DNA of 64,000 bases from Haliclona indistincta (Eukaryota > Porifera > Demospongiae > Haplosclerida > Chalinidae). The translations under genes and the position numbers were made by a program. Under the pieces are notes generated by a model, which searched no databases, had not been told where the DNA came from, and saw only the letters and a list, made by a program, of their open reading frames with translations. This document shows positions 8,541 through 60,257 of this stretch, piece by piece; the first letter of the stretch is position 1; each line of letters starts with the position of its first letter. Where the stretch lies: positions 1,272,764 to 1,336,763 of the forward strand of contig OZ024789.1 of the NCBI GenBank assembly GCA_964017065.1, given 5' to 3'.

Positions 8541-11710
<3,170 letters not shown>

Positions 11711-19347: not shown

Positions 19348-20929
19348 ATTATGCCACGCGGTAGACGGGGCATATTTAGGGTTGAACGGAAAACAAGATG
19401 GCGGCTACACCTAGGCTAAATGCAATAATACACGTATATCTTGGCTGTTGACGACATTAGTGGTATTTAAACTATCTGGAGGCTATCCTAAGAGGTAAGC
19501 GCTTACAATGAGTCTACTAATAAAGACTATAAAAGCAGTTGCCAGGGGCATGACAAGATGGCATCACGCCTGGAGGCACTAAGTACGGCACGGCCATATC
19601 TTCGCCGTACGTGCGTTTCAAGCTAATCTAACGTTCTGAAGCTCCTTGCACGATTTGTGCGATTACAAAGAGACCTTTAGAAGCAAAAGAAACCAGGTCT
19701 AAGGTGGTAAACCAGAGTTCACGTGGTCACCCGTTTGTTCATCTTCTTTCTTCCTTCCTTCCTTCCTTCCTTCCTTCCTTCCTTCCTTCCTTCCTTCCTT
19801 CCTTCCTTCCTTCCTTCCTTCCTTCCTTCCTTCCTTCCTTCCTTCCTTCCTTCCTTCCTTCCTTCCTTCCTTCCTTCCTTCCTTCCTTCCTTCCTTCCTT
19901 CCTTCCTTCCTTCCTTCCTTCCTTCCTTCCTTCCTTCCTTCCTTCCTTCCTTCCTTCCTTCCTTCCTTCCTTCCTTCCTTCCTTCCTTCCTTCCTTCCTT
20001 CCTTCCTTCCTTCCTTCCTTCCTTCCTTCCTTCCTTCCTTCCTTCCTTCCTTCCTTCCTTCCTTCCTTCCTTCCTTCCTTCCTTCCTTCCTTCCTTCCTT
20101 CCTTCCTTCCTTCCTTCCTTCCTTCCTTCCTTCCTTCCTTCCTTCCTTCCTTCCTTCCTTCCTTCCTTCCTTCCTTCCTTCCTTCCTTCCTTCCTTCCTT
20201 CCTTCCTTCCTTCCTTCCTTCCTTCCTTCCTTCCTTCCTTCCTTCCTTCCTTCCTTCCTTCCTTCCTTCCTTCCTTCCTTCCTTCCTTCCTTCCTTCCTT
20301 CCTTCCTTCCTTCCTTCCTTCCTTCCTTCCTTCCTTCCTTCCTTCCTTCCTTCCTTCCTTCCTTCCTTCCTTCCTTCCTTCCTTCCTTCCTTCCTTCCTT
20401 CCTTCCTTCCTTCCTTCCTTCCTTCCTTCCTTCCTTCCTTCCTTCCTTCCTTCCTTCCTTCCTTCCTTCCTTCCTTCCTTCCTTCCTTCCTTCCTTCCTT
20501 CCTTCCTTCCTTCCTTCCTTCCTTCCTTCCTTCCTTCCTTCCTTCCTTCCTTCCTTCCTTCCTTCCTTCCTTCCTTCCTTCCTTCCTTCCTTCCTTCCTT
20601 CCTTCCTTCCTTCCTTCCTTCCTTCCTTCCTTCCTTCCTTCCTTCCTTCCTTCCTTCCTTCCTTCCTTCCTTCCTTCCTTTTCTTCAGAGAGTCTAGCAC
20701 AGACTGCACAGTAGTGAGCGGACCAAACGCAACTAAACGTACAAAGGAGCAACGCTACCTATGACCATCAGTGCACCTGATATCTATTTAGGCCTAAAAC
20801 ACTGGGAGAATCTAGTATTTCCAGAAAAAAACAGCGATTTTTGGTCCATAACAGACTCCATCCCATGCTTCTGCTTGAACTCCGTTACTAGGTTACGCCT
20901 ACTCGCGCACGCCCGTGTATGTAATTATT
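19348..20929 (+). repeat. R2 interspersed repeat, second copy (left part) with (TTCC)n
   Basis: Starts ATTATGCCACGCGGTAGACG and aligns with 8541 onward. At the position of the (TTTC)n in the first copy it carries a perfect (TTCC)n run at about 19750-20680, some 230 units. Its tail (20680-20929) continues, after the inserted Harbinger element, at 28959. Confidence 0.95.
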
Positions 20930-23544: not shown

Positions 23545-24480
23545 CAGAGATTATTAACACTACGTAACCGGGATAAGAAACTGTCAATCAAAATGTATTG
23601 CGCGGAGTGTACCCATGCGCGTTTCGCGTTTCGACCATGGTTTCGAAAATGACGCAAAGAATTTACGTAATAGAGTGTGCAGCTACTGACAGTTTTTCCA
23701 CTCTTACACTCATAGTTCTTTCCTTTTGTAACGAAAGGAGGCGTTTCTGCGTAGCTTTACCAAGTAACTCTAAAGTCGCCATGCACGTTCTTCGTCTGCA
23801 GTATGGTCAAGGGTGGATCTCAGACAAGGTAAACGGCCGAGTATGATGTAAAAACAGCTTGTAAACACATCCATGGCTTTGTGAGATGTGTTCTACTAGT
23901 TTTGTCTAGTGTACTATAAAGTTCTGGTAGTAGGTCATGTAAATATCATAATTTTGTGTCTGAATATTGCTTTTTGTGCTAGTTAGAGGCGTAGCAAGCT
24001 GTTTTTAGTACTGTTTTTGTGAACACATCCATGCAAAGTCTACGTATTTGGTACAAGTTTTAATGGTTTTTTATGCTACTTGGACTGTTAGTGTGTGTAA
24101 ATGTCATAGTTGTAATCTTCTACTTTTATGGTTTGCATGAGTAACGGCTAGCCTCACCGAGTGCTCTATCACGCAAGCATATTACATTCTGTACAGTGCG
24201 AAGGGCGAACGCCTGAAAAGAACAGGTAAAGGAAGACGAAGTACTTTCTCCGCACTCAAAACCACATTTTCGACTACTTTAGTTTTCTTTTTCAATTCTT
24301 GCATCGTTATAATCTCTCTCAGAAGCAGCCATGGTACTTGTCCCGTCGGCGGAGAGCACGTTGTAGTTACCATAACAACTGTAAGGTATAAACAAATTAC
24401 GTCATTACAAGCGAAACGCGCATAGTGACACAAGATTGTCACAGTTTCTTATCCCGGTTACGTAGTATTAATAATCTCTG
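23545..24480. mobile_element. hAT-like non-autonomous element (936 bp)
   Basis: Ends CAGAGATTATTAA and inverse, each followed inward by ACGTAACCGGGATAAGAAAC. The flanks carry the direct repeat GTGTCAT at 23538-23544 and 24481-24487. CAGNG-type ends and a 7-8 bp duplication suggest hAT. No transposase is present. It is inserted in the Harbinger element next to the RAG1-like transposon. A single end of a relative is at 7178. Confidence 0.8.
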
Positions 24481-24995
24481 GTGTCATGTCACGGCTGTTT
24501 TTGGCCAATTAAAACGTGGACATTTAGGCACGCCCCCGATAATTTCAAATACCCTTAGCAACGCATAGCATGCAACCAACTTCCGCTTCGTGTATGTATT
24601 GCGCTGTGCGCTTTCACGTGACTGTACTACGACAACGTGGACAAGACAAGCGCATAGGCCTGAATTTGCTTGTCCTTTTCTTACAAAGGGTGTGTGAATA
24701 GCTGAAAGTATGGCAGAGTTACGAAGTCAAAGCGTAGGTAAAGGATCCTACAACTGAAGATGATAGATCGCAAGATCCTACTCGATCCGAGACATCAGGG
24801 GCATACAGCGTCAAAGGTTAGTCAGTGTGCTGTTATGTTTTACTGAGTCGAAGCAGTAACCTTTTTTTTCCCCCGTGTTATGATCCTTTTATTACAGCAA
24901 TACTTAGTGTTATATACTGACGTATATGTATGTCAATAGCTGTCTGGATTTGCTTATGATTAAGAATAGAGTGGGTGTCCATTACTGGCAATATA

Positions 24996-27900
24996 CTATT
25001 CTTCCCTAGGTCTCTTTCTATACTGTTTGGGAGTTGGCTGCAGATCATTCAACCCAGGGGCTGACTCGATGTTGTGCTCATTGAACACGTATTGAAGCTT
25101 CTGCAGAGGGTTGGCGATACCATTGTAAACGCCCTCTAAGCGATTGATGTGAGCGTGAATGGACTCTGCTCCTTGTTCCCCCATGAGCCCTGCACCAATC
25201 TTCCACCTTCTCATCCACTCAATGACGTGGTCTTCTAGGATGTGCATTTTTGGTAAGATGGTAGCTGTTGGAAAGAGTTCACGATAGCTCTTCATGAATG
25301 TCTTGATGTCACTTTCTGTTTGTGAAAATTATTACATGTACTTGTCACATGATTATTGGCTTACCGAGGGTGTCAATGTCTTTATCAGAGACTACTCCTC
25401 CACTGTAGCCTTTATAGCAGCTGCTGTATTCCTTTAATATTCTCCTGAATGTCACTGTCACTGAGTCTGCTTCATGTGCTAGCATTGGGCAGTGTTTGTT
25501 GGCCACATCATGGATGCCAGAACAGATTATGTCAATGGATGGGTCCTAGATCATTGTCATTAGATATTTTGTGTTGCATTGTGTGATATTTTTACCTTCA
25601 GAAGTTTGTGCACGTGATTTCCTACAAACGTAGCACCATGATATGCCTGTCGCTCTACGTGCAGGGCTTTTAGGGAACACTCTAAGCTGCCCATGAATGG
25701 GCCATCATTTGGACATGCTTTTTGAAGATCCTTTTTAGCTGTTTCAATTTCTTTGCTCTGTGTGTAATAGCATGAGATAATAATTATTTCTACATGTCTT
25801 TGTGTTAACTGTTGTGTTGTTACCTTGCTTGTGTGTAGGTGCTCTGTATACTGCAACTCTTGCTGGAATTGACGCACTGTACTATTTTGCTCCGGCGCTG
25901 GTACTGAAACCATCAGGTATGTTACTACTTGCTTCAGTACTGAAGCCTTCTGTTCCAGTTGAGCTTTTTCTTCTTTAAGTTTTGCTAATCTCTGTGCAGT
26001 TGCAATATACTCATTATATGTTGTTCCTCCTACAGCTGTGCTATCAGTCAATGCCAGCTTCATATCGAGGTCTCGGCAGGCATCTTCAAGCAAATTAAAA
26101 AGTCGATTGAAAATTCCCAATGTTAGGTGGAGACCAGGGAAGCAAATCTATTTTGAGTAAGTTGGTTAATTTAAATTACTGTTTACTGAGCTTGTCTTAC
26201 GTGATCTAGTGGAATATCAAATAGAGGTTTTCTAATGGCATTATTAAACTCCTTTGCCACACGCAGGTTACCTCCGGACTCAGCAAACTTTGTGTAGTCC
26301 TCTTTGATGCTATCGAGAGTGCGAGAAGTGTGACGGCCTCTGGTTTCTAAAGGTATTTTGAGATCAGTACTACTGATGGTACACCAGAGGCAGTTATGCT
26401 TCCCTATACAGTTGATCAGTCATAATACTTGTTTGGATTGCAGAATAAAGATCTTACCACTTGCACCAGACAGGCCGTAGACAGCAGTGAGAAATTCATA
26501 GTCACCAGAGAAGAATAGCCTGATTGTCTTGTCTCTATGTATACATGTGTAGGTATGTTTAACAATGTGTATTGTACATAAACATGTACCTCCATTTCAT
26601 TCCCTGTATCTCCTTGATGTGTGTTTGATACTGCTCTAGTGCAGTGTGTAGGTTCACTATACTGTCACCTGCCTTGAATACAGCCACCAGTGTGGTATTT
26701 TTGATGGAGTTGGGATGTGTTGTGTTAACGACTTGGAGGTTTAGTTTAAAACTACCATGGCCTTTATCTCCGCCCAGTTTTATCCACACTTCCTCTGATG
26801 GAATTGCACCATCATGCCATGTCAATCTTCCTGGTGACCTGTGCATGATGGACTACATGACAATTTTATGCACTAATTTACAATTTACCCTTGATGTTGT
26901 GCTAGCCGGTCAGCTACTTTCGCAATTAGATTGGGGACATATACAAAGGGTGCTTCGCAAAACTTGTCAGGTTCTCCTTTACCAGATGAGAAAGCAAACG
27001 GTATCATCTCAGCATTCAAATTAGTGCCTCCTGTAGCCTCTTTTGCTAGTGATCTCTGCTTGTTTTCACTAGCTAGAGAAATGTTGAACACTTTTAGCCA
27101 TCTATAGTTGGTTAATAAATTTTTTAATTTTATTTCTAGTAAAAAAAGCTGCCCACCGTCTCAGCTTCCTTAGCTTGCTCCACGAAATTGATAATGACGA
27201 TTTGATGGCTAGAGCATGGTCCGTGGGTATGGTTAGGGGTAGGGCCTCCTTCAGCAACGCCTGTCTTTTCTCTTTCGGCAGTGCTCGTAATTCCTCTTCC
27301 AGGTCAAGGCTGATCATTCCTCTGATTTCACCGACCTTGCCTACTCTTCTCTTCAGGGTTTTTTTGGAGGCTTCTGCTGCAGTAACTCTCTGCCTTGACA
27401 CAGGCACAAGGCTGATTGGCTATTGGTGAAAAGATAAAATGTCATACTATCATTTTACTCAGTATTCCAGTACCTGTCCTTTAGTTGGAATCCTCACTAT
27501 GTTGTCACTACTCTCAGCCAAAAGTCTCCGAACCAAGTTCTCAGCTACTTTTTTTTCAACGGGCAGTGTAGGTGACTTGCTGGACTGGCTAAGTATGTCA
27601 TTGACTGATGTTGTGGTGATATAATGCTTAGTGCATCTGCTGCTTTCATGAGCATCATAATGTTCGGCTTTTGCTTGTCTCTTACAGCTTTTACAGCACA
27701 CTATCAAGCTTGACAGAACCTCTAGAACAGCAGCGTGCGGTACTCTGATAGTTGCTTTATCAAGCTCGTGCTGATGGCAGACTGGGCATGATGTGTCTTC
27801 ACTGACCTCTAGCCATTCTAGACAGCAAGATGCACAGACTAGTCTGTCACCGCCTAACTCCACTGGTTGGCTAACAACAGAGTAGCAAATAGGGCAGGTG

Positions 27901-28427
27901 AGATGGTTCAGCTGATTGTCACAGTAGTCATAGCAGCTTCTTGGCGAGTGAATCACTTCGGATGGAGCCAGTGTTTTTATCTGCTGGAACAGTGCAGTTG
28001 CACTGCTTTCATTAGGCCTGCCTCGGTTTTTGTTCATCTTTTTCTTTCCTGTAGGCCTAGCTGTAGTCTCAACATGCTTGCACACCTATTACAAACAATA
28101 TGAATGCATTATGTGTTTGTGATTTATCTTTCTACTCACAGTGCAGCCATCATCGGTGTGCTCTGTCCAGTTAAAAGGAGTGATGGAGTGCCTATACAGA
28201 ACCCCTTTGGACATAGCAGACTGTTTCCTTCGGGTAGCGGCACAACAAGAGTTGCAGAAGTGTGTTGGATGGATACTGGGAGAGTCTTCTTTTACCACTA
28301 GCCCAAAAGTGGTTTCTAATGCCTCCTGATAGCTCATACAACTATATTTTGGATTTCTCCTCCTTGACCTCTCTAATCTGCCTCCACACACTCTGCAGTG
28401 TGCACTTAGTTGGTGCACGTCTGCCAT
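24996..28427 (-). CDS. RAG1L: RAG1-like transposase, 963 residues, 11 exons
   Basis: Exons in transcript order: 28140-28427, 27474-28085, 27157-27419, 26889-27101, 26590-26838, 26458-26534, 26201-26403, 25824-26147, 25596-25757, 25365-25545, 24996-25315. All junctions are GT-AG and every phase matches, giving 2892 nt with no internal stop. Residues 10-100: RAG1-type N-terminal zinc region (C11-x2-C14, SIHPTHFCNSCC at 51-62, H90, C95-x2-C98). Residues 157-202: RING with six Cys, then a finger with C227/C230/H242/C247. Core: D483 in KLGGDKGHGS, D553 in FFSGDYEFL, C572-x2-C575, H882-x4-H887, E904/E908 in GEQGAES, matching the order of RAG1 D600, D708, C727/C730, H937/H942, E962. The start at 28427 was chosen because it opens the zinc region; an upstream exon is possible. 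Confidence 0.85.
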
Positions 28428-28881
28428 TCTCTTGCCTGCAATCAGCAAATTTGTGTGTTTTATAAGCGGTTGTATCATTTATTAGAAAAAAGGTTACTCT
28501 TCCATTTGTTTATCAATCTCTTTAGTAATGCTTACTTTAGCAGCAGGTCAATGGTATTCACTGAGATCTAAGTGCACTTCCGCTCAAGAGGCCCTTGAAG
28601 TAGCAAACCACAACTATTGTGATTGCAGCTGTGTTGTTCTTGTGTATGCGCAGTAGTGCGTGAATGGTGTTATCAGTGCGTACTACCGCTAGTATTAGTT
28701 GTAATGGTTGTATTAAGTGACTAATGGACGATTTTAAGTACCAAGGTAACTAAGTAGCGTACAGTAACAACCGCTAGACGCTGGTTGTTCTCGTGTGCGC
28801 ACGCGGCCCAGTTAAAGCGATACCGTAATAATTTTTAATTGATTTAATTATAGACTAAATGTCCACGAAAAAACAGCCGTG
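28428..28881 (-). promoter_or_regulatory. Upstream end of the RAG1-like element
   Basis: About 450 bases between the transposase start and the right terminus, with no open frame of note. This is where its promoter must lie. No TATA box stands out. Confidence 0.4.
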
Positions 28882-28958
28882 ATGTACAGTTGTGTGTAGT
28901 ACGTGTCGTCATTATTAGCGTTCAACGTTACCCGTCGACGTGAAATCTAAACCTCTCT

Positions 28959-29255
28959 ATTCTAATACGAGCGCACCTTAGTACAAATTGCTTGGTACGC
29001 GAGTGCTCAGGAGTGCTGTTGCCACTAGCAGTGTTCACAGCAGACAACGAGCAAATCGTCACTGATTTACCTGTCAGGCTTGGTAAGAAAGCTAGCTTAA
29101 GCTTAGCTAATGTTGCGTGGTACATGTCGCATGTAGTGCAGAGCCGATCAAGCTAGTGTAGCCTGTCACTCCGCAGTGGCCTGAATAGTTCTCTTTACAG
29201 TAACACTGTATTAGCATAAGTGCTAACTAAGTCATTAATAAAAAAAAGAAAATAA
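28959..29255 (+). repeat. R2 second copy, right part
   Basis: Resumes R2 sequence at ATTCTAATACGAGCGCACC, aligning with 11444-11710, after the Harbinger insertion. Confidence 0.9.
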
Positions 29256-36113: not shown

Positions 36114-37255
36114 GAACACTGTAGCAAAAAATAATTGTTATGCTATACTATCAGCTCGCCTACGCATGTATGCATGCAGTGCATACGACACTAGTTTGTT
36201 GACCTGTAGTACAGGCTGTACTGTACGGCGGTTATAATTTATATCTGGCAAGCGCAGAATGGTGATCCTATAGCTTGGCGTTCTTTGAAGACTCCAGACA
36301 GAAATTTGTTCTCCGTGAACTATACGGCGCGGAGATACTCAAGCTAGTGCTTGGTCACGTGCGCTAACCACTGCTTGGTCACGTGCGTATTGCGCAATCA
36401 CATTAATGGCGTCTAACACTTAGCTGACAATGGATCACGATCGAGAAATCGCAGAATTTATATCGCCGTTTCGCTAAAAACTAAGTTCAAAAGGCACATG
36501 CTAGGAGAATTTCACGACTGTTCGTGGGTGTTTTGGTCCTGGGACTGCTCATGTAAAGGTGCTAGGCGAGTGGAAGGAAGGAAGGAAGGAAGGAAGGAAG
36601 GAAGGAAGGAAGGAAGGAAGGAAGGAAGGAAGGAAGGAAGGAAGGAAGGAAGGAAGGAAGGAAGGAAGGAAGGAAGGAAGGAAGGAAGGAAGGAAGGAAG
36701 GAAGGAAGGAAGGAAGGAAGGAAGGAAGGAAGGAAGGAAGGAAGGAAGGAAGGAAGGAAGGAAGGAAGGAAGGAAGGAAGGAAGGAAGGAAGGAAGGAAG
36801 GAAGGAAGGAAGGAAGGAAGGAAGGAAGGAAGGAAGGAAGGAAGGAAGGAAGGAAGGAAGGAAGGAAGGAAGGAAGGAAGGAAGGAAGGAAGGAAGGAAG
36901 GAAGGAAGGAAGGAAGGAAGGAAGGAAGGAAGGAAGGAAGGAAGGAAGGAAGGAAGGAAGGAAGGAAGGAAGGAAGGAAGGAGAAGGAAGGAAGGAAGGA
37001 AGGAAGAAGAAAACTAAGATGACGAAACTCGGTTTTCACCGTTTCCAGGTTCGTCACTTTAGTAACAATTTCGAGCAATCTCCTTACTACTGTAAGATGG
37101 GGCAACGCCAGAGAGCAGATTTAGGTGTCTTTTGAGGTATGCAATTCATCACCAGGCGAAATATCAGCGTTTGAATGCTAATACATTGTATGTAGCCGCC
37201 ATCTTGTTTTCATGTTCAACCCTACATAGGGAGGCACTACCATGCCTCCCTAATA
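36114..37255 (-). repeat. R1 interspersed repeat, copy c, with (GGAA)n expansion
   Basis: Reverse-orientation R1. It ends at the right with GTAGGGTTGAACATG and the AAGATGGCGGC motif near 37196-37206. The microsatellite slot is expanded to a pure (GGAA)n run of about 100 units (36572-36981) plus a short impure end to 37006. Long Lys/Glu/Gly/Arg frames here are artefacts. Confidence 0.9.
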
Positions 37256-46469: not shown

Positions 46470-48203
46470 TCAAATACAGTCTTGAAGCAAGTAGGGAACG
46501 AGTGCAGCAGCTTAACGCCAAGCTTCAGCAGAAAGATCATGAGCACATGCTGCAGGTATCAAGTGTATAGTGTATACCTGCAGCTGTATAGTGTATACCT
46601 GCAGCTGTATAGTGTATACCTGCAGCAGGTATCAAGTGTTTAGATCCAGATACTACAGTTAGATCTACAGAAAAAAGTTGATGAAGGAAATGTACGGTTT
46701 CAAAAATTGCAAGATGACAAGCAAATAACTGCATGAGAAGCAGCTAGTGGGGACAGCAGAACAAACTAAGAAACTAGAGCTAGAAGGAGAAACACAGCAG
46801 AAGCAACTGTTTCAGCAATTTCAAAAGTTGCAAGAAGATTTTCAAGCAACCAAGAAGCAGCTATTAGAGCAGAATCAGAGGCTGAAGTTAGACAAAGAAG
46901 GAACAACGTGACCAGTCTCATGCTCAATGTCAAAAATTTAAAAGAAGTGAGAAGCAGCTAAGGGAAAAGGCAGAACAAGATTCGCAAGAATATGGTAAAT
47001 TATTGTGCGAAAAAGAGAATCTGCAGCTGCAGCTATCCAAACAAAGCAGTAATGCTGAACAAGTCATCGATCAGGTCACAAAGAAGTACCAGGAACTGAA
47101 AGAAGAGAATGACAGACTCCGGTTGCAGTCAGCCGTAGAAGATTCACAAAGTGGTGGTGATGATAGTACGCTTCAAGAACAGGTAAATGACTTAGATTAT
47201 ACATTGCTTATTATTTTCTTGCAAGCAGTTGTCATTATTGAAACAAGAGAATGAGCGTCTTGAAAAGAAACTTGAATCGGTCAATTTAACCAAGGATTGG
47301 TCACGTGAGGAGGCAACCAATCTCAGACAACAGGTACGTAATATCTAACAGGAAAGTTTGAGCTACTAGCTGATATTATTTTTGTTACAGCTCTCTGCTA
47401 TGAAATTAGCTGATGCTCGGGATGAGCAGCCCCACTGGTTAGTGAGAAGAGAGGAAGTGGAGCTAACCGAAGAGGTGATAGGCAAAGGAGGCTGGGGAGA
47501 AGTGAGAGTTGCCAAGTTTCGTGGGCTTCATGTCGCTGCCAAGTGTCTTTATCAAGATATTCGTTCTGACTACAACCTCAATCAATTCACTCATGAACTG
47601 GTGATGTCTGCTAGACTGCGACATCCAAATTTGCTTATGCTAATTGGTGCCACAAGAGAAGATGAGCCTTTAATTCTGACTGAACTAATGCCAACCAGTC
47701 TTCGCAAGGAACTGGATAAGAAAAAGTTGCCAAACAAGCAGATCGTTTCTGTTGCCCAAGATGTCGGACGTGCTCTACACTATTTACACCAGTGGAGGCC
47801 CTCTCCGATCATCCATCGTGACATCAGCAGTGCAAATGTGCTTCTTGAGCCACTCACTTCTAACGGCTGGAGAGCAAAAGTTTCAGACTTTGGATCAGCT
47901 AACTTTATGAATTGTACCTTTAAAACAGTTGGGCCTGGTAATCCAGCTTATTCTGCTCCTGAGGCGTGGTTCCCCGACCAACACTCTCCTAAAATGGACA
48001 TCTTTAGTTATGGTATGTTACTTGCCGAAGTGTGTCTTCGAGTGATTCCAGATGAGTGCAGTATAGAGAAGAGAGAAGCTCACATAAGACACATCAAGTG
48101 GGTAGCTATGGCCTCCCTTATAAGGTCCTGTACTAGTGAGTGTCCGGATGATCGCCCCAGCATGAGCGACAGGATTTTGGAACGACTTGGCAAGATGTAC
48201 TAA
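46470..48203 (+). pseudogene. Coiled-coil TKL-type protein kinase gene, two apparent frameshifts in the coiled coil
   Basis: Exons 46470-46555, 46650-47182, 47229-47333 and 47391-48203, start exon not found. The first three encode a long Gln/Glu/Lys coiled coil (QQLNAKLQQKDHEHMLQ; KKYQELKEENDRLRLQ). The last encodes a complete kinase domain: glycine loop GKGGWGEV, VAAK lysine, HRDISSANVLL catalytic loop, DFGSANF, SAPEAWF, and DRPSMSDRI at the end. HRD and DFG are intact, so the domain should be catalytically competent, Ser/Thr or dual specificity unknown. The exon 46650-47182 needs frame shifts near 46727 and 46905 to keep the coiled coil. They may be sequencing errors or decay; the kinase exon itself is open throughout. 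Confidence 0.8.
46556..46649. repeat. ~21-bp triplication at a kinase-gene donor
   Basis: CTGTATAGTGTATACCTGCAG is repeated three times, and the sequence CAGGTATCAAGTGT, i.e. the exon donor, occurs at both ends of the array (46553 and 46625). Confidence 0.85.
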
Positions 48204-59139: not shown

Positions 59140-60257
59140 ATGGCCTCATCAAACCGGACTGTAGTTTGCCCGTCACCACTCAAACCTGCTGCAGAGAAGG
59201 CTCTTTTGACTCCCACGGAAATGGAAACGGCCATTCCTGCACTAATGGCTCTAAGCCAGGCACACTTCACCTCTCAGTGCTTGTATACAGTGGTTGTCCT
59301 CGGTGTGCCAGACGTCATTGGCTCTGGAACATTATCTGTGGCCGAGATCGTCAGCTCTCTAGGGTGCCCTGTGAATGAAGACCTACTGTTGAGACAGCTC
59401 CGAGTGGCTGCTGCCGAGGGAGTCCTGACAGAGACTGCTGGTGAACGGGGAGAGTTCATGTACAGCCTCACTGCCATGGGAAAATTGCTTCAGACAGGTG
59501 CCCCTCAACCGAGTATTGCTTGTGGTGTTAAGCACTGGTGTGAGCCTCCGATGTGGGCTGCTTGGTCCAAGCTCCCAGAAGCAACATTTCAGGAGGTGAT
59601 GTCCCATTCCGTGCAGCCAATGGGTTACAACTTTTTGATTACTACAAGGCCAACCCTGTTTCTGCCAAACCCTTTAACGAATTCATGGGTATATTTACAG
59701 GAATTGAGATTCCAGCCATAGTTAATGAGTATGACTGGACTCCTTTCAAAGGCAAGACTGTCTGTGACATAGGAGGGAGCTTTGGACCAACTATGACTGC
59801 CCTCAAGGCAAAATATCCAGATATTACAACACTGAGTTTTGATCTTCCTCAAGTCATCGATGCAATCAAAGATGCTCCTGAAGGAGTAGAGTTAGTGAAG
59901 GGAAATTTTTTCGAACACAATACTATCCCAAACTGTGACGTTGCATTCTTGAAGCACATCTTCCACGACTGGTCTGATGACGATTGTTCTAAAATCCTCT
60001 GTTCTCTTCACATGGCTCTTCCTGTGCATGCTAAGCTAGTTGTTGTTGATGCCATCATGCCAGGGGTGGGGCCTGACAATGCAACTACACTTACTCAAAA
60101 GCGTGTTAACACCTTCATGGGTGTGTTTGGAGGCAAAGAGCGAACCTTGGCAGAATGGGAGATACTCTTCTCTACAAATGGCTGGGCCATTGAAAATGTT
60201 ATCAATACAACTCAAGGTGGACCTTTGTGCTCATTGATAACTGCTGCTAAAATCTGA
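59140..60257 (+). pseudogene. ASMT/COMT-like SAM-dependent O-methyltransferase with a 1-bp frameshift
   Basis: N-terminal half 59140-59588: dimerisation/winged-helix domain (MASSNRTVVCP; VLTETAGERGEFMYSLTAMG). C-terminal half from 59588 in the next frame: SAM-binding motif VCDIGGSFGPTMTALKAKYP, acidic residue in LSFDLPQVID, catalytic-type histidine in HIFHDWSDDDC, and the usual end RTLAEWEILFSTNGW; stop at 60257. The break is one missing base after GCAACATTT at about 59588; the copy at 12605 has GCAACATTTGCAGG and is in frame. If this is a sequencing error, the gene encodes about 372 residues, normal for acetylserotonin/hydroxyindole-type O-methyltransferases; the substrate is unknown. Single exon. 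Confidence 0.85.

Follow-up and report, generated by a model that had tools for sequence, protein, structure and literature searches.

RAG1 is the enzyme that assembles antibody genes, and its origin is usually argued from Transib cores and from bilaterian or cnidarian RAGL elements. A third group of transposons also bears on this question. Proteins with the DUF1280 domain are Chapaev transposases, placed in one clade with RAG1 (PMC3985635; this and the other articles cited below by number are drawn on in part). The hallmarks of Chapaev elements, including CAC ends and a target-site duplication of 3-4 bp, are given in PMC4079192, which also documents horizontal transfer of Chapaev families, and a Chapa domain followed by a RING is known from two Chapaev subgroups, for which an ancient fusion was inferred (Kapitonov and Koonin 2015, PMC4411706). 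In the RAG systems, the end signals are bipartite and unequal, with 12/23 spacers in the recombination signal sequences (RSS) and 27/31 in ProtoRAG (PMC8289069). Here we analyse a window of 64,000 nucleotides from contig OZ024789.1 of the sponge Haliclona indistincta (the window is the whole of this stretch, and positions are counted from its first letter), in which a well-preserved transposon of 4,392 bp lies at 24490-28881 with its gene on the minus strand. With little doubt, it is a Chapaev-group DNA transposon (CMC/CMCT clade) of the cut-and-paste type, which seems to be autonomous and belongs to the Chapa-RING subgroup.

Family, ends and gene of the element

The encoded protein matches the Pfam models DUF1280 (PF06918, 4.3e-16) and RAG1_imp_bd (2.4e-7), both above the curated cut-offs, and RING below it (E 0.0013 and 0.0099). 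Residues 26-247 match mouse RAG1 in the PDB at 2.9e-12 as a single sequence, and a profile of seven sequences matches PDB RAG1 over residues 3-251 at 6.4e-30, the RING being clear in this comparison. Judged by sequence, the N-terminal zinc domain and the RING are true RAG1 homologues, and they stand in the order that defines the Chapa-RING subgroup. The motifs C(2)C, LH and H(4)H with D-D-E, which characterize Chapaev, are all there, as are all of its hallmarks in the parts of PMC4079192 drawn on. At E up to 5, a range in which HMMER filters drop most matches above about 0.1, the listed Pfam models for this protein include neither the RAG1 core nor Transposase_21 (CACTA/EnSpm) nor DUF1258 (Mirage). 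When the core region (residues 380-963) was used as query, with scoring limited to the 7,989 candidates that had most words in common with it, 43 proteins came out at E of 0.01 or below, their named sources being Ephydatia, Sycon, Lytechinus and Branchiostoma; 41 carry PF06918 and none the RAG1-core domain. We assign the core to Chapaev and not to Transib/RAGL because of the DUF1280 match and the equation of this domain with Chapaev in PMC3985635, and the 4-bp duplication fits.

The ends are a strict 13-bp terminal inverted repeat, which starts with CAC: CACGGCTGTTTTT at 24490-24502 (plus strand, at the end 3' of the gene) and its reverse complement at 28869-28881 (minus strand, 5' of the gene), giving the 5'-CAC .. 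GTG-3' termini of Chapaev (CMC) elements. As read directly from the sequence, both flanks carry a perfect ATGT duplication (24486-24489 and 28882-28885), within the 3-4 bp of this group. Six fetched copies of the flanking host repeat lack the element and have a single continuous ATGT where the window has ATGT-element-ATGT; they match the window over at least 74 bp on the right and only 11 bp on the left, because another repeat abuts there. Two further loci (L059 and L060) resemble both flanks but are without the 12 bp around the target. The insertion point is a junction of two different genomic repeats (24240-24489 and 28886-28985), and both have further copies, most of the listed ones being 92-100% identical over 85-120 bp.

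The gene occupies 24996-28427. A splice search gave 11 exons and 10 GT-AG introns of 49-66 nt, joining into exactly 963 codons without a lesion in the frame. Read along the minus strand, exon 1 (28140-28427, with the ATG at 28427) holds the RAG1_imp_bd match, or Chapa-type N-terminal zinc domain, and exon 2 (27474-28085) the RING and then a zinc finger, as located by the match to RAG1. Exons 3 (27157-27419) and 4 (26889-27101) lead to the core, where D483 and the main part of the DUF1280 match lie in exon 5 (26590-26838), D553 in exon 6 (26458-26534), C572-x2-C575 in exon 7 (26201-26403) and the LH motif (L641-H642) in exon 8 (25824-26147), for which long paired helices are predicted in the relative P0017. 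Exons 9 (25596-25757) and 10 (25365-25545) are followed by exon 11 (24996-25315), with H882-x4-H887, E904, E908 and the stop codon. A preliminary description of this locus had already listed the inverted CAC ends, the perfect 4-bp duplication, the 11 exons, the 963 codons free of disabling lesions, the RAG1-type N-terminal zinc domain with its RING, and a core with D483, D553, C572, C575, H882, H887, E904 and E908 in the order seen in RAG1; all of this was reproduced, and the residues are at the same positions.

Comparison with other copies supports this gene model independently of transcripts, through codon divergence, splice sites and stop-free exons. Against 18 genomic loci, several of them near-identical to one another, divergence is 29-54% at third codon positions, 10.5-21% at first and 9-14% at second, with the same pattern in 18/18, whilst introns diverge by 17-36% with many gaps. 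In ten representative loci, of which one to seven could be aligned per site, the aligned donors of all 10 introns are GT and the aligned acceptors AG, alignment gaps aside. When 14 loci were searched exon by exon, nine (L020, L021, L025, L052, L054, L055, L056, L057 and L058) matched each of the 11 exons, with no stop codon where they matched, although some exons matched partly and L020 and L021 are near copies of each other; stops were seen in L024 and L053, and exons were absent from L009, L018, L051 and L053. The gene fills 24996-28427 and no other frame in the element exceeds 80 codons, so that by the criterion of frame length (a RAG2 profile was not run) a RAG2-like gene would not fit, and with no such partner encoded the element would act alone.

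Likeness to RAG1 and to known elements

The DDE core follows the RAG1 order of residues (D-D-C2C-H4H-E). By sequence only, single-sequence and profile searches of the PDB match RAG1 solely in residues 3-272, and a profile-profile comparison aligns H882 and H887 with the zinc histidines of RAG1 and E904 with its last acid, over 140 columns at the C-terminal end, with an E of 3e-4 for a single comparison and a probability of only 38%. In predicted structures, the cores of two relatives, P0017 and P0004, have the RAG1 fold, RAG1 being their best match. A segment of exon 3 sits at the position of the RAG1 nonamer-binding domain, but it is not claimed as such, because profile comparison supports it weakly (E 0.012, probability 3.5%, with nothing from two other pairings) and the predicted local distance difference test score of the model is about 60-77 there.

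Among relatives whose source is named, the closest come from the freshwater sponge Ephydatia muelleri, the best of them (P0017) 43% identical over 550 core columns. The DUF1280 proteins of E. muelleri and Sycon ciliatum (P0001, P0004, P0015, P0017 and P0040), known here as proteins only, share their family with the window protein; some carry RAG1_imp_bd and P0004 also a RING. Sponge members have thus been deposited already, under names that do not mention a transposon (hypothetical, uncharacterized or 'E3 ubiquitin-protein ligase NRDP1'). In a tree, the window core falls together with the Ephydatia sequences (support 83/82), whilst the deepest fork is weak (65/91). The branching departs from host phylogeny, with Lytechinus and Amphiura on the side of the window and Branchiostoma on that of Sycon, and so does not decide between early fusion and horizontal transfer.

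The Chapa-RING Chapaevs of PMC4411706, as described in the parts drawn on, resemble the window element in domain order (N-terminal zinc domain, RING, DDE core) and in having an animal host; what sets the latter apart is its sponge host and inner boxes of unequal spacing (see below). Vertebrate RAG1 and ProtoRAG/RAGL share with it the N-terminal zinc domain, the RING, the D-D-C2C-H4H-E order, CAC ends and end signals that are bipartite and unequal, and the likeness in core fold is seen in the relatives of the window protein. Their core, however, is a different sequence family, and the window element has no RAG2 partner. The target-site duplication is 5 bp in ProtoRAG and in Transib (PMC8355894 for the latter), against 4 bp here, and the Transib transposase is a core without RAG1 N-terminus or RING (PMC4411706, PMC7204232), both of which the window protein has. 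N-RAG-TP of Aplysia shows RAG1 N-terminal similarity as well, but it is described as RAG1-N-terminal-like in its entirety (PMC8355894), whereas the window protein adds a DDE core. A term search of PMC7204232 found no mention of sponges or Chapaev.

Inner boxes, other copies and mobility

Inside the terminal repeat, comparison of copies shows a second conserved box of 13 bp at both ends, CGTGGACATTTAG, at 24515-24527 (plus strand) and 28855-28867 (minus strand). On the stop-codon side it starts at offset 25, which leaves a spacer of 12 bp, and on the start-codon side at offset 14, with a spacer of 1 bp. All 14 two-ended copies, the window included, keep this 25/14 spacing with no more than one mismatch, except for three at the 5' end of L017; most are near-identical, and so not independent. 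L057 has boxes at offsets 25 and 13, with four mismatches each, and single ends show offsets of 25 (L026, and L020 with three mismatches), 14 (L009), 16 (L018) and 24 (L056, three mismatches). The box was not found at either end of L055 or at the 5' end of L024, and L052, L054 and L058 have matches at chance level only, though at offset 25. When the genome was scanned for the end with the 12-bp spacer, using a pattern fitted to these same copies, 14 places were hit, 11 of identical sequence, against none for a reversed control.

The two spacers differ by 11 bp in 14/14 copies and by 12 bp in L057, about one helical turn, as in the 12/23 RSS, and by this analogy the unequal spacing may serve the same purpose. 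Unequal inner boxes were not found for Chapaev in the portions drawn on of PMC4411706, PMC4079192, PMC12730594 and PMC3985635 or in the literature searched, outside which lie Repbase Reports and most subscription papers; they are apparently a new feature.

The genome-wide search for further copies, suggested in the preliminary description, listed 60 matches (60 candidates, 40 of them scored). Amongst the 14 two-ended copies, the 4-bp duplication is perfect in 13, and no copy has the equal 5-bp flanks expected of RAG1/RAGL; L015 lacks a duplication, L049 has its ATAT inside an AT run, and L012 and L013 share one flanking sequence (a duplicated locus), and are therefore not independent. Seven copies on six contigs (L015, L016, L019 and L047-L050) form a non-autonomous family of 2,354-2,358 bp from which the middle of the gene is gone. 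Over 2,354 sites these copies show 0-2 substitutions, with 4 gap columns in one of them as well; six have a perfect target duplication, and where parts align they are 69-84% identical to the window element. Since these sister copies are near-identical, the family was mobile very recently, under the action of some transposase of this genome. Both ends with equal flanks of 4 bp also occur in two full-length elements of other subfamilies (L055, 4,265 bp, GTAT; L057, 4,341 bp, AAGC), the 2 of 17 loci that came out of a search accepting equal-flank pairs only. The genome holds several Chapaev subfamilies (L020-L025, L051-L058), the single exons of which mostly show about 30-90% identity with the window protein, and in many of these loci the matched exons are stop-free. 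The 454 bp upstream of the start codon (28428-28881) diverge from other copies by 11-14%, less than the introns or, mostly, the other untranslated end (14-28%); this region could hold a promoter, binding sites or an intron of the 5' untranslated region, for which a putative acceptor lies immediately upstream of the ATG.

Taken beyond what is observed here (gene, ends, duplication, family, RAG1-like fold of the relatives and recent moves of sister copies), the sequence suggests how the element might work. The transposase would bind both ends, recognizing terminal CAC repeat and inner box, and cut with an RNase H active site of the D-D-E type (D483, D553 and E904) held by the C-x2-C/H-x4-H zinc site, inserting the element with a 4-bp stagger. 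The RING could be a ubiquitin ligase or a dimer module, and the unequal box spacing might favour the pairing of one left end with one right end.

Alternative readings, host genome and significance

The name 'RAG1-like transposon' given in the preliminary description suits the N-terminus, the RING, the residue order and the fold of the relatives, but not the core itself. A true RAG1-like element of the RAGL or Transib clade, that is, a sponge branch of the RAG1 lineage, would account for the homologous N-terminus and RING, for RAG1 being the best fold match of two related cores and for the C-terminal profile alignment, low as its probability is; yet it is improbable given a duplication of 4 and not 5 bp, the DUF1280 match with no RAG1-core model listed, the predominance of PF06918 and absence of the RAG1-core domain in the core query, and the lack of room for a RAG2-like gene. 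Domestication of such a transposon into a host gene is less probable still. The open frame with its coding-type divergence would suit it, but selection along a transposon lineage also explains this divergence, the ends and duplication are intact around the gene, and many further copies carry the same ends. Some points do weigh against the Chapaev reading as stated. The element is known from its sequence alone, the fold was predicted for stand-ins (P0017, and P0004 at 30% identity overall) and not for the window protein, so that the structural comparison proposed earlier was carried out on relatives, and the tree was built from database relatives without Repbase Chapaev references. Moreover, nothing close to this copy was found elsewhere: among the 40 scored of 60 candidates, the longest match is 76% over 2.5 kb, with shorter pieces reaching 86%, so that the earlier suggestion of recent activity is supported for the sister subfamily and stays a suggestion for the window copy.

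A deflating possibility, compatible with a Chapaev transposon and carrying real weight though somewhat short of even chances, is that the element is already a silent relic and its 12-versus-1 box spacing a functionless quirk of the family. No near-identical autonomous copy was found among these 40 candidates, and the box is missing from both ends of L055, of a distant subfamily, and from the 5' end of L024. On the other hand, the 963 codons have no lesion, non-autonomous sister copies moved recently, and both spacing and polarity are kept in L017 and also, though with a difference of one base and four mismatches in each box, in L057, a copy with exons 31-87% identical to those of the window. 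A tentative and rather unlikely proposal is that sponge Chapaevs make working use of bipartite end signals that are unequal by roughly a helical turn and are read by a protein with the full RAG1 domain order.

Silicatein is a sponge protein, and a silicatein-like gene is present in this genome, as expected from its earlier description as sponge-like. The gene (L037, G000 C10, near 3514575) reads CGCSYAFSA, with serine in place of the catalytic cysteine, and was found among papain-type protease genes (80 matches, 20 loci fetched, one with serine); an approximate, hand-joined translation has silicatein alpha as its best PDB match (3.7e-71), followed by digestive cathepsin L (2e-67). Elsewhere in the window, one long frame of 1,257 amino acids at 40551-44324 matches a right-handed beta-helix and has hydrophobic segments by eye, a protein kinase domain lies at 47382-48203, and an O-methyltransferase domain at 59140-60257 has its upstream part in an overlapping frame. 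Long simple-repeat tracts, one with a masked stretch, occupy 8853-11299, 19699-20752 and 36498-37105.

The union of N-terminus, RING and core in one element, to which the preliminary description drew attention, is already reported for two Chapaev subgroups in the part of PMC4411706 drawn on. What is apparently new is an anatomically complete sponge example with its ends, with relatives modelled onto RAG1 and with unequal inner boxes, which extends the known likeness of Chapaev and RAG1 to sponges. The presence of a RAG1 N-terminus, a RING and a core with RAG1-folding relatives in a single sponge gene supports a very early joining of these parts in animals, with horizontal transfer as the alternative. 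With its open frames, known ends, sites seen in the empty state and copies that moved recently, the family allows tests, outside RAG/Transib, of whether hairpins form, whether cutting works without RAG2 and whether unequal ends are required. If the unequal boxes are indeed a working feature, the 12/23 logic would not have been born with RAG, but would be older than RAG2 and than the split between Chapaev and Transib/RAG.
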